Shown here piece by piece: positions 24,251-28,813 of a stretch of DNA of 36,361 bases. This DNA comes from Myxococcales bacterium. GTDB lineage: Bacteria > Lernaellota > Lernaellaia > Lernaellales > Lernaellaceae. The notes below the pieces were generated by a model, which had not been told where the DNA came from, ran no database searches, and worked only from the letters and a program-made list of their open reading frames with translations. Every line of letters begins with the position of its first letter. Within the stretch, counting starts at the first letter, position 1. The translations under genes were made by a program, and so were the position numbers. The stretch is from NCBI GenBank assembly GCA_012517325.1, contig JAAYVF010000052.1:1-36361 (forward strand), in the 5' to 3' direction.

Positions 24251-24297
24251 ACCCCGATTGATTGAATACCCATTCAGAACGCCGGTGCGGAGTACTG

Positions 24298-25743
24298 ATG
24301 ATCACCAACCAGATGCGTGTAATCGTTGGCGGAAAAGGCGAAACGACGATTCGGTTTTTTCTTTTCCTCGGACTCCTGACGTGTTGCTGGCTGCTTCCGG
24401 GGGCGGTGTTCGCCCAGGAGGCCGGCGGCCTGCCGGACGTCGGCGCGCCCACGGAGTCGCAAGCCGAGGGTGAAACCGCTCAGCCGGCCGACCAGCCGAC
24501 CGTCACGGACGAAGCGGAATCGCCGGCGTTTCTCGGCGAGTACGGGCGGTGGATCAAGCACGCGGAACACATGGCGATGACCGAGCTGGATTTGTGGGGT
24601 TCGTCCTCGACCATTCCGGAAGGTTTCGGCGTCATGCTGTTCGGTTACGGGACGATGCGCGCCGCGCAGCGCTACGACAACCGGCGCAAGCTGATCGACA
24701 TCATTCCGGTCTTCGACATCCCCGACCCGTTCCACATCGGCGGCAATTTCTTCTCGTTGGATTTCAACGTTCACGGTTCGACCAAGGGTTATTTCGCCGG
24801 GTTCATGTACGGCATCACCGACACATTGATGATCGGCAGCACCACGATGCTCGCCGACATCGAAATCAAGATGGACCCGATCTTCACGCCGGGTTCCTGC
24901 GAACGCCTCGGCGTGGCGACGCGCGCCGAGTTCTACCGCCTGCTCGAACAACTCGGCCGCCCGCGGCCCAAGCACTATTACAAATCCGAGCCGCTCGACT
25001 GGGGCGACACCGACCTCTTCGTCACCTGGAACTGGTACCGCAGCAAGTACTTCTCGACGGCCACGACCCAACGCCTCTACCTGCCGACGGCGCACCGCGC
25101 CGAGCCGGACAAGGCGATCATCTTCGCCCTGGGCCCCGATCTGGACGTCGGCAACGCGGCCTGGGGCTTGAACCTGAGCGAAGCGTGGGACTTCCGTCCG
25201 CCCGCTCCGGCCAATATCGTCACCTTCAGCCTCGGCGCCGAGGGCGCGATTTATTTCCAGACCAAGCGCAAGAGCCCGAAATTCCTGAAACCCAACCGCG
25301 ACGTGTGGGATTACATGAAATCCCAGGGCGTCGAGTTGGACTTCTTCCCCGATCTGTCCGACATCGATCCTTACTACTACTACACGCCGCCGCCCTGGGT
25401 CGCGGTGAGCGGCGGTTTCGGCATCGGGCCGATCTCGCTGACCTACCGTCACGGTTGGGGCTTCAACGGCAAATACGAAACCAACAGCCCCGGCTTTAAA
25501 AAGGTCATCGATGAAATCGGCCTGGTCGGCACCGGCGACGACGGCAAGATCGTCGCCGCCGCCTCGCTGCCGCTGACGCCGCTGTACATCCCGGGCATCG
25601 CCCAGTTCCGGTTCGAGTACCGCACCGACGGTCGCAACTCGCTGGTCTTCCGCGATGTGTATCAGATGGGCGTCGGCTTCCTGATTCCGATCGCACCCCC
25701 CGAAAAATACCGCTTGCCGAAGAAGAAGGAGGTGGTGAAATGA
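24298..25743 (+). CDS. exported protein, predicted outer-membrane beta-barrel, family unknown
   Basis: 481 residues. A signal peptide ends at VFA-QE near residue 40, followed by a Pro/Glu/Thr-rich linker and then amphipathic, aromatic-rich strands (FHIGGNFFSLDFNV, YFAGFMYGITDTLMIG, FRFEYRTDG, YQMGVGFLIPI). These strands alternate in a way seen in outer-membrane barrels, and there are no internal hydrophobic helices. A run of Tyr (PYYYYTPPPW, about 360-370) is unusual. I cannot name a family. ATG 24298 is chosen because GGAG (24289-24292) lies 5 bases upstream; ATG 24262 has no site. Its stop overlaps the lipoprotein start as ATGA, so the two are made together. Confidence 0.65.
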   Translation: MITNQMRVIVGGKGETTIRFFLFLGLLTCCWLLPGAVFAQEAGGLPDVGAPTESQAEGETAQPADQPTVTDEAESPAFLGEYGRWIKHAEHMAMTELDLWGSSSTIPEGFGVMLFGYGTMRAAQRYDNRRKLIDIIPVFDIPDPFHIGGNFFSLDFNVHGSTKGYFAGFMYGITDTLMIGSTTMLADIEIKMDPIFTPGSCERLGVATRAEFYRLLEQLGRPRPKHYYKSEPLDWGDTDLFVTWNWYRSKYFSTATTQRLYLPTAHRAEPDKAIIFALGPDLDVGNAAWGLNLSEAWDFRPPAPANIVTFSLGAEGAIYFQTKRKSPKFLKPNRDVWDYMKSQGVELDFFPDLSDIDPYYYYTPPPWVAVSGGFGIGPISLTYRHGWGFNGKYETNSPGFKKVIDEIGLVGTGDDGKIVAAASLPLTPLYIPGIAQFRFEYRTDGRNSLVFRDVYQMGVGFLIPIAPPEKYRLPKKKEVVK

Positions 25744-27326
25744 GCCGCCCACTCCGCCGTTTGACGCAGCTTTTCGCGCTCCTGATCGCCTTGCAGTTCG
25801 TCGTGGCCTGCATGGGCGAACCGGCGCCCGTGTGGGATTTGAACCGCCTGCTCCGCGTCGGTCACGATCTGCTCGAAGAAGGCAGGGGCTCGGAAGCCTA
25901 CAACTACTTCGTCAAAGCCCTGAAAATCGACCCCGACAACTACCAGGCGCACTACGGCATCGTGCTGGCGCTCGACAAACGCGTCTTCGCCAACATCGAC
26001 GGCATCATCGACCTGCTTTCCGGCGTGTACATGTACGAGCCGACCACCGCGGAATGCGAAATCGCTTGTCAGCGGCTCGAGGAATGCGACCTGTACGACG
26101 AGGCCTGGACCTCGGCCGAATCGTGCGTCCAGGACTGCCCCTTCGGTCTGCAACCGTACATGTTCGACATGCTCAGCGACGGCAGCACCTGCTACAAGAT
26201 CCGCCACCGGGCGCTCGAATGGATCGTCCCGACAACCCCCGAAAACTGCAAGCTGCTGTGCGAAAACCTCGATCTGTGCGGCAACATCCAGCCGCCGGTG
26301 ACCTTCACCGTCGAAGAATGCATTTCGCACTGCCCGCACGCCTACGTCGAGCGGCACAGCAAGTGCTACCTGTCGAACCTGGGTTCCTGCAACGGCTACG
26401 ACCGCACCTGCTTCGAGCACACCACGGTCGGCCTGCAAATTCTTTTCCGCGAAATCGGCATCCATGTGGCGCCGCAAATCGAGGAGTATTCGCAGTTCCT
26501 GCTCGATAACCCGAACGACTTCCAGTACTACCTCAAGGATTTCAACTGGACGCTCGTCGATCCGCCGGTGACGATCGACTGGGCGGGCCGTTACAACACC
26601 GGCTACATGCACCTGTCGCGCATGTTGGGCCACGCGTTCAACGCGCTGCTGTTGGGCGCCACGTCCGTGCAGCTCGAAATGAACTTCCCGAACTTCGACC
26701 TCAACTTCAACTACAGCAACCCGCAGGGCCTCGAGGAAATCCTCAACGCCCTGATCATCTCGCTCGAAATCCTGCTGTACGACCCGATCTACCCGCAGGG
26801 CTTCGCCATCTACGACGAGGATTGGGCCTACGACCAGGTCGAGGATATGGGCAAGGAGCTGGGCAAGATGTTCGGCGAGGTCGCCCGCATGTTCGACTTC
26901 ATGTTCACCGACACCGACCGTCAGCCGGGCAAGGCGTTGCGCTACGAGGACGACAACGGCAACAACATCTGGGATCCCGACGAGGTGATGCAGATTCGCG
27001 GGCTGGAAATCGCCGACAAGCAGATCGAAATCAATCGCCCCCAGGCCGAGGCGATCCGCGACCTGTGCTACGCCCTCGAGGCCAACCTGCTCGAACGCAC
27101 CCCGGTGCCCATCGAACTGTTCACCGGCGTGCTCGAATCCCTCAACCTCGGCGATTTCGATTTCCTGATCGACCTGGCCATCGCCTGGTCCGAGGACGGC
27201 ACTTTCGATATCAGCGGGCCGTTCTGGGAAACCAACAAGTTCGCCTTCCGCGAACTGCTGAAGGTTATCATCGAAAAGCTGAAGATCGTGCTCGAGGTGG
27301 TCGACGAACTGGGCCTGGATATCTAG
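25740..27326 (+). CDS. lipoprotein with duplicated Cys module, TPR-like segment and EF-hand-like loop
   Basis: 528 residues. Lipoprotein signal ending at Cys24 (FVVAC). Residues about 33-92 resemble a TPR (a helical pair with EAYNYFVKALKIDPDNYQAHYG). Residues 100-224 hold two copies of a module C-x3-C-x5-C-x12/13-C-x3-C followed by a CY cysteine: 106, 110, 116, 129, 133, 151 and 170, 174, 180, 194, 198, 209, plus 217 and 224, suggesting disulfide-locked hairpins in the periplasm. Near 403-414 DDNGNNIWDPDE matches an EF-hand/dockerin calcium loop (D1, N3, N5, D9, E12). The C-terminal part is helical. It follows the barrel gene with a 4-base overlap and ends before a strong terminator, so it may be its partner. 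Function unknown. Confidence 0.7.
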   Translation: MSRPLRRLTQLFALLIALQFVVACMGEPAPVWDLNRLLRVGHDLLEEGRGSEAYNYFVKALKIDPDNYQAHYGIVLALDKRVFANIDGIIDLLSGVYMYEPTTAECEIACQRLEECDLYDEAWTSAESCVQDCPFGLQPYMFDMLSDGSTCYKIRHRALEWIVPTTPENCKLLCENLDLCGNIQPPVTFTVEECISHCPHAYVERHSKCYLSNLGSCNGYDRTCFEHTTVGLQILFREIGIHVAPQIEEYSQFLLDNPNDFQYYLKDFNWTLVDPPVTIDWAGRYNTGYMHLSRMLGHAFNALLLGATSVQLEMNFPNFDLNFNYSNPQGLEEILNALIISLEILLYDPIYPQGFAIYDEDWAYDQVEDMGKELGKMFGEVARMFDFMFTDTDRQPGKALRYEDDNGNNIWDPDEVMQIRGLEIADKQIEINRPQAEAIRDLCYALEANLLERTPVPIELFTGVLESLNLGDFDFLIDLAIAWSEDGTFDISGPFWETNKFAFRELLKVIIEKLKIVLEVVDELGLDI

Positions 27327-27356
27327 GCCGATCGGCGAAATGAGTTGATCGCAAGG

Positions 27357-27394
27357 CCGCCGGCGGTTGCCCGAAACCGCCGGCGGTTTTATTT
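27357..27394 (+). terminator. intrinsic terminator after the lipoprotein gene
   Basis: A perfect 12-bp stem (27357-27368 with 27375-27386) and a six-base loop are followed by TTTTATTT (27387-27394). It lies 31 bases after the stop codon. Confidence 0.9.
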
Positions 27395-27460: not shown

Positions 27461-28813
27461 ATGAAAAAGATCGTTCCGCTCGTCGTGTTGCTGCTTTTCC
27501 TGGCGGCCCCGGCCGCGCCCCCGGCGGGCGCCGCACCCGAAGCGCCGCCCTTTAAAATCGGCCTGGCCAAGGTAGATCTCACGCCCGATCCGGCGAAAAG
27601 CCCGATCACCCTCAACGGCTATGGCGCGCGGTCACGACGTCCGGCAACCGGCGTGCTCGATCCGATCTACGCCCGGGCGATGGTGATCGAGGATCCGGCC
27701 GGCCGTCTGGTGGCGCTGGTCAGCCTCGATCTGTGTTTCGTCAACGAGGAGGTGTTCGACACCGTGGTCGAACGGCTGCGCGGCCTGGGCGTCACCGAGC
27801 ACAACCTGTTGCTCGCCGGCACCCACACGCACGACGCGCCTTCCGCTTACGACCGGCGGTGGATCGCCACGGCGATCATGGGCGCGTACGATCCGCAAAT
27901 TTTCGCGCAGGTGGTCGACGGCACCGTGCGGGCGGTGGAGCAGGCTTTCGCCGCGCGGCGCGAAGCCGTGCTGCGTTACGACGTGTCGGAATTGCCCGGA
28001 ATGAACCGCAGCCGCCGCGATCCGGCGTTCGACGTCGGCGTCGGAGGTTTCGACCCCGCCTCGGCGATCAAACCGAATCCTGAAAAATATCCGACCGACC
28101 GCCGGCTCACGATTCTGCGGGCCGACGACCCGCAGGGTAACACCTTCGGCGTCTTCGTGCGTTATTCGGCCCACCCAACCATTCTTTCGCCCGAAAACAT
28201 GAAAATTTCGGCCGATTGGCCCGGCGTCATGACCGCCCGGCTGGAGGCGAAGCTTGGCGCGGGCGCGGTGGCGATGTTTGTCAACGGCGCCGAGGGCGAC
28301 GCCGCGCCGCTGCCCGACTGGAGCAATCCGGAGCAGGAAATCCGCGACATGAGGGAATACGGCGACAAAATGGCCGCGGCCGTCGAGGCGCGGTTGCCGG
28401 CCGCCCAGCCGATGACCGCGCGGTTCGTCGCCGGCCACACGACCCGCCGGGCGCTGGGCAAGGTGATCCTGCGCCCGTTCGGCGGCATGCCGATGAACCC
28501 CGGTTTCGCCCGGGTTCTTTACCTGCGCCCCGATCAGCCGTTCCAGGCGTTGCGCATCGGCCCGCTGATGCTGCTGGCCGTCCCGGGCGAGCCGACCACG
28601 GCGACCGGGCAGGAACTCGAAGCGCTCTGCGGCGGCGATGTCCAATGCCTGACCGTCGGCCCGGCCAACGGCTACCAGGGCTATTTCGTCACGCCGGCGG
28701 AATACGACGAGGGCGGCTACCAGGCCGATTCCTGCTTCTACGGCAAGAACGCCGTCGCGAAAATCCGCGACGCGATGAAGCAATCGGTCCGCATCGTCTC
28801 CGTCCGGCCGTGA
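27461..28813 (+). CDS. exported neutral ceramidase-like hydrolase
   Basis: 450 residues with a signal peptide (MKKI then hydrophobic core, AGA-AP about 22-25). The mature protein matches the N-terminal, zinc-dependent amidase domain of neutral/alkaline non-lysosomal ceramidases: VDLTPD near 38-43, THTHDAPS at 121-128 (metal ligands), the SAHPT segment, NGAEGDAAP in place of the NxxGDVSPN motif, and ANGYQGYFVTPAEY near 408-421. Ceramidases split N-acyl sphingosine; related bacterial proteins have other amide substrates. It is shorter than classic ceramidases (about 650 residues) because the C-terminal Ig-like domain is absent. ATG 27461 has AAGGAG upstream and follows a terminator, so it is its own transcription unit. 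Confidence 0.8.
   Translation: MKKIVPLVVLLLFLAAPAAPPAGAAPEAPPFKIGLAKVDLTPDPAKSPITLNGYGARSRRPATGVLDPIYARAMVIEDPAGRLVALVSLDLCFVNEEVFDTVVERLRGLGVTEHNLLLAGTHTHDAPSAYDRRWIATAIMGAYDPQIFAQVVDGTVRAVEQAFAARREAVLRYDVSELPGMNRSRRDPAFDVGVGGFDPASAIKPNPEKYPTDRRLTILRADDPQGNTFGVFVRYSAHPTILSPENMKISADWPGVMTARLEAKLGAGAVAMFVNGAEGDAAPLPDWSNPEQEIRDMREYGDKMAAAVEARLPAAQPMTARFVAGHTTRRALGKVILRPFGGMPMNPGFARVLYLRPDQPFQALRIGPLMLLAVPGEPTTATGQELEALCGGDVQCLTVGPANGYQGYFVTPAEYDEGGYQADSCFYGKNAVAKIRDAMKQSVRIVSVRP

Follow-up and report, generated by a model that had tools for sequence, protein, structure and literature searches.

A predicted outer-membrane barrel, a Cys-rich lipoprotein and a ceramidase-like hydrolase encoded together in Candidatus Lernaellota: a possible module for N-acyl lipids

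To our knowledge, little is known about how bacteria carry sphingolipids and similar N-acyl lipids across their outer membrane, and we know of no partner protein described for the predicted porin SphA. In Pseudomonas aeruginosa, sphingosine induces SphA together with the neutral ceramidase CerN under the control of SphR, and SphA has homology to meta-pathway phenol-degradation proteins (PMC3900636). The same words, meta-pathway phenol degradation, name the PF13557 family (Phenol_MetA_deg). The SphA and CerN genes are co-regulated by SphR rather than joined in one locus, and the regulon lists contain no partner lipoprotein. As SphA is described, it resembles the locus reported here in that a predicted PF13557-type barrel is tied to a PF04734 hydrolase. 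In contrast to the SphA-CerN system, the barrel is strictly paired here with a Cys-rich lipoprotein that carries a TPR hairpin and an EF-hand-type loop, and the ceramidase Ser is missing from the hydrolase, whose score with the ceramidase equivalog is far under the cut-off.

The window, i.e., the whole stretch of DNA that was analyzed, comprises 36,361 nucleotides from a genome of the candidate phylum FEN-1099, or Candidatus Lernaellota/Podoxiota (PMC11382960). The locus consists of genes A, B and C, with the following features.

24288..24291, + strand, Shine-Dalgarno-like GGAG in the sequence ahead of the likely ATG of gene A
24298..25743, + strand, gene A, predicted outer-membrane beta-barrel, distant relative of PF13557 (Phenol_MetA_deg) barrels
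25740..27326, + strand, gene B, 528-residue lipoprotein with a TPR hairpin, a Cys-rich insertion and a helical domain with an EF-hand-type loop
25809..25811, + strand, lipobox Cys24 of B (VVAC, cut before the Cys, then MGE), invariant in 11 homologues
25854..25970, + strand, TPR hairpin of B, residues 39 to 77 (Pfam and phmmer)
26055..26192, + strand, Cys module 1 of B, residues 106 to 151
26247..26390, + strand, Cys module 2 of B, residues 170 to 217, with the spacing of module 1
26949..26984, + strand, EF-hand-type loop DDNGNNIWDPDE of B, residues 404 to 415
27353..27390, + strand, strong intrinsic terminator stem 3' of B, followed by a U-rich tail
27461..28813, + strand, gene C, exported neutral-ceramidase-like hydrolase (PF04734), third member of the locus

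Gene A, with its likely ATG at 24298, encodes 481 residues, including a Sec signal peptide cut at about VFA-Q. Gene B starts with the ATG at 25740, in a 4-bp overlap (ATGA) with the end of A. The two overlapping genes reported by a first-pass annotation of this DNA are both present. That annotation had placed them between one promoter and one strong terminator. The terminator was borne out, with a stem of -31 kcal/mol (z, -4.2). The promoter does not rise above chance: no sigma-70-like site lies on the + strand upstream of A, and the whole region contains one such site against 0.8 in shuffled sequences.

The B product combines a signal peptide with a lipobox Cys (VVAC), as expected of a bacterial lipoprotein. 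Its TPR-like unit is a single hairpin that matches PF14559 with an E value of 3e-4 and 21.3 bits, under the Pfam cut-off of 25; residues 39 to 74 also match the designed TPR protein 1na0 in a phmmer search (E, 4e-5). The Cys-rich part looks like an internal duplication, with two tandem modules of sequence C106-x3-C-x5-C-x12-C-x3-C133 and C170-x3-C-x5-C-x13-C-x3-C198, the spacings of which are kept in the orthologues. The modules announced by the first-pass annotation are thus real and conserved, and we infer the disulfide bonding that it ascribed to them. The EF-hand-like loop, D404-x-N-x-N-x3-D-x2-E415, has the canonical 12-residue spacing; it is invariant in seven orthologues and has an equivalent in four paralogues. 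An Evasin-like Pfam match in B (E, 0.14) was dismissed as a chance hit.

Orthologues of A and B lie side by side, with overlaps of 1 or 4 bp, in all seven available genomes of the class, in keeping with the co-occurrence expected of a genuine pair. Identities over the alignments range from 43 to 67% for A and from 36 to 62% for B. The two sets of values are correlated (r, 0.93), which we set aside as a sign of contact between the proteins because the shared species tree yields the same correlation. No A orthologue was found by sequence search in 138 other bacterial genomes, and a profile of A and its paralogue A' gave partial matches only, in 3 of 379 other genomes.

Gene C adjoins the pair in six of the seven genomes, in varying order. 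The order is A-B-C in the window, in G001 and in G002, where C overlaps the end of B, and C-A-B in G004 and G006. The C gene beside A-B in G003 is diverged and lies on the opposite strand. In the seventh genome, G005, both A and C are at contig ends, on different contigs, and their orientations are those that a C-A-B order would give. The set is also duplicated as a whole: a diverged triad with a different gene order, B'-C'-A', is present in this genome (L003, 4603-8877), in G001 and in G002; in G003, A' and B' stand together with no C' in between. Upstream of the triad in this genome, L003:2637-4406 encodes a 589-residue multi-pass membrane protein for which Pfam gave no match. It is 55% conserved in G001 (L046:11207-13036) and resembles ArnT/PMT-type glycosyltransferases.

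Searches of Pfam, NCBIfam and the PDB by plain sequence comparison gave no match for A, and the Pfam HMM of PF13557 retrieved none of 16 A-family members at E ≤ 1. Profile-profile comparison was more informative. A profile search identified a further group of barrels, A'', of about 405 residues, which align with A and A' over 336 columns (hhalign probability, 99.2%). The combined 16-member profile of A, A' and A'' (A9) matched a PF13557 profile built from 16 loci with a probability of 97.0% and an E value of 8e-11 over about 101 columns, a match that depends on the A'' members, since the A orthologues alone gave 9.7%. With five poorly chosen PF13557 members instead of 16, the probability was 8 to 40%. 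In controls, the A9 profile gave 0.8% with FadL and 0.1% with B and with C, and the PF13557 profile gave 0.3 to 13.7% with unrelated families. The similarity lies in the 'YGITD..GDxxxGxxW..LPTG' region and covers only some 100 columns, the A proteins being longer than the 242-position model.

A resembles the FadL/Toluene_X (PF03349) channels, which are abundant in the same genomes, in size and strand content, but shows no profile similarity to them; membership of that family was rejected (hhalign, 0.8 to 2.0%). The density of amphipathic strand windows per 100 residues was 11 to 19 for A, A' and A'' and 13 to 23 for FadL proteins from these and further genomes, as opposed to 2 to 12 for controls (B, C, amidase and cytosolic proteins). 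The difference between the A family and the controls has a Mann-Whitney P value of 7e-8, which is only indicative because the sequences are related. Outer-membrane proteins often end in a C-terminal Trp, and A'' ends in ...LMKFW, like a beta-signal. The barrel proposed by the first-pass annotation is thus the most likely fold of A, probably as a distant branch of PF13557.

Gene C, which follows the terminator, matches PF04734 with 149 bits (cut-off, 32.1). It aligns with neutral ceramidases (2zws, 4wgk) over the catalytic domain, and the residues aligned with His97, His204, Glu411 and Tyr448 of P. aeruginosa ceramidase 2zws, the zinc ligands in the PaCD structure, are kept in C and its orthologues. 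Unlike those enzymes, it has 450 rather than about 650 residues, and the active-site Ser of neutral ceramidases, in the GDVSPN/GNLSP motif, is replaced with Ala in C and its orthologues (GDAAP versus GNLSP in 2zws). That Ser is kept in two of three C' copies. The NCBIfam ceramidase equivalog NF041649 scored 88.5 bits with C, short of its cut-off of 1200. Given the missing Ser and the low equivalog score, C is probably a ceramidase-like amidase that may act on a substrate other than ceramide, another amide or an ester. The Lernaellota genomes G000 to G006 have 7 to 14 PF04734 matches and 6 to 15 FadL (PF03349) matches each, with some genes matching twice, so that genes for lipid hydrolases and hydrophobic channels are expanded.

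The A'' barrels are found in a different setting. In this genome, A'' stands at the end of a cluster whose other products are a B-like lipoprotein, a PLP enzyme resembling sphingosine-1-phosphate (S1P) lyase (417.7 bits and E, 5e-124, against 3mad), a membrane protein of the DUF819 type and an Ntn hydrolase of the C45/AAT type. Two genomes of another phylum have the gene order S1P lyase, TauE, DUF819, C45 (not always present), A'' and penicillin amidase, and G194 has a C45-type gene and A'' in the same region. Neither in that phylum nor in G194 is A'' next to a B gene. The A'' loci resemble S1P lyase operons in that the barrel adjoins S1P lyase, a C45 Ntn hydrolase and/or a penicillin amidase, whereas the locus of the window has no S1P lyase beside A, and its link to these operons runs through A''. 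One barrel family thus repeatedly lies beside amide hydrolases of three families, PF04734, C45 and PF01804, and in its A'' form beside a sphingoid-base lyase, an association with three hydrolase families that is hard to explain otherwise. The operons of the other phylum (L147:6034-15220 and L146:6366-13323) include a TauE-type exporter, from which one might guess at the breakdown of a sulfonolipid (capnine) to sulfonate rather than of a sphingolipid. In G002, a B-like lipoprotein and S1P lyase share one open frame of 869 residues (L073:7104-9713, - strand), with 63% identity to the lyase over 478 residues; this is either a fusion or the result of a lost stop codon or an assembly error.

The phylum has a large family of B-like lipoproteins, many of which have no barrel nearby. 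The role of B need therefore not be specific to A, which weakens the idea that B serves solely as a barrel partner. The Cys-rich insertion is distributed differently: all 11 B members that pair with A or A' have it, and the 12 others examined lack it. Its confinement to the paired members suggests that this part may be specific to the barrel or to the lipid.

The first-pass annotation rightly described a pair, which proves to be conserved, the modules of the lipoprotein and a likely barrel, and it recognized neither partner. It overlooked gene C with its similarity to ceramidases, the paralogous triad and the connection with S1P lyase operons; together, these suggest a likely function for the A-B pair. 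We propose, with a probability of about 0.5, that A, B and C form an outer-membrane module by which ceramide-type or related N-acyl lipids are imported and in part cleaved. A would provide a barrel path over the outer membrane for a hydrophobic amine or an N-acyl lipid (ceramide-, sphingosine- or sulfonolipid-like). B, anchored in the outer membrane and stiffened by disulfides and probably by calcium, would bind A and/or the lipid at the mouth of the barrel. C, a member of the neutral-ceramidase superfamily, would be exported and act as a zinc amidase that cleaves off the N-acyl chain, a role that would fall to C' in the triad or to the Ntn amidases in the A'' operons, and the resulting fatty acid and amine would enter cell catabolism. 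A more elaborate picture, which we put forward tentatively, is that of a three-part machine for capturing ceramide- or sulfonolipid-like lipids and splitting them. It would consist of a barrel, a Cys-rich, calcium-dependent lipoprotein as its lid and a surface amidase, and its barrel family would have been combined, in two or more phyla, with amide hydrolases of three families. The recurrence of this barrel family with amide hydrolases and S1P lyase, together with its strictly paired lipoprotein, makes outer-membrane transport of sphingolipids testable through named genes. It also allows a function to be proposed for the first time for a locus that all available Ca. Lernaellota genomes retain.

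The direction of transport might be the reverse. The module could act in the outer membrane on N-acyl lipids that belong to the cell itself (sphingolipids or sulfonolipids) and turn them over or export them; A/B would then be the lipid exporter and C a remodeling amidase. A single locus conserved in seven of seven genomes of the class, with vertical co-inheritance of A and B, is what one would expect of a core envelope function rather than of an optional catabolic one. However, the A'' barrel lies in operons with a degradative S1P lyase and amidases, which argues for catabolism; because of that lyase we prefer uptake and regard export or envelope maintenance as unlikely. It is improbable that A is instead devoted to secreting B or anchoring it at the surface, comparable to the Slam-type barrels for surface lipoproteins, with C as a neighbor having an independent surface-hydrolase role. 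The strict pairing and overlap of the A and B genes and the strong terminator that separates B from C in the window would fit such an arrangement, as would the presence of B-like lipoproteins next to diverse exported enzymes elsewhere. Yet many of these lipoproteins occur without A, A'' occurs without B in the other phylum and in G194, and C accompanies both A and A'.

That A is a soluble periplasmic beta protein, in what would then simply be a cluster of exported hydrolases, appears very doubtful. AlphaFold, run on three-sequence alignments, built no barrel for A, at a confidence (pLDDT, 37; 50 for B) so low that the model speaks neither for nor against one, and the A orthologues extend past the last predicted strand, unlike proteins with a classical C-terminal beta-signal. 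These observations are opposed by the FadL-like content of amphipathic strands, the PF13557 profile match and the terminal Trp of A''.

Outside the A-B-C locus, B-like lipoproteins often adjoin other exported enzymes, GH123-like or phosphoesterase-like, or a CysZ/EI24 membrane protein. At L059:4107-7589 and L082:6004-12216, they lie next to proteins resembling GH123-family glycoside hydrolases and an FGE-sulfatase-type protein. The CysZ/EI24-type gene follows that of the lipoprotein in several Lernaellota genomes (L054:4549-5304, L055:3880-4680, L056:4661-5164, L057:8197-8955 and L086:298-1056), forming an uncharacterized conserved pair. Many Lernaellota lipoproteins (L080, L087 and L059) also have poly-Asp linkers of six to eight residues soon after the lipobox Cys.
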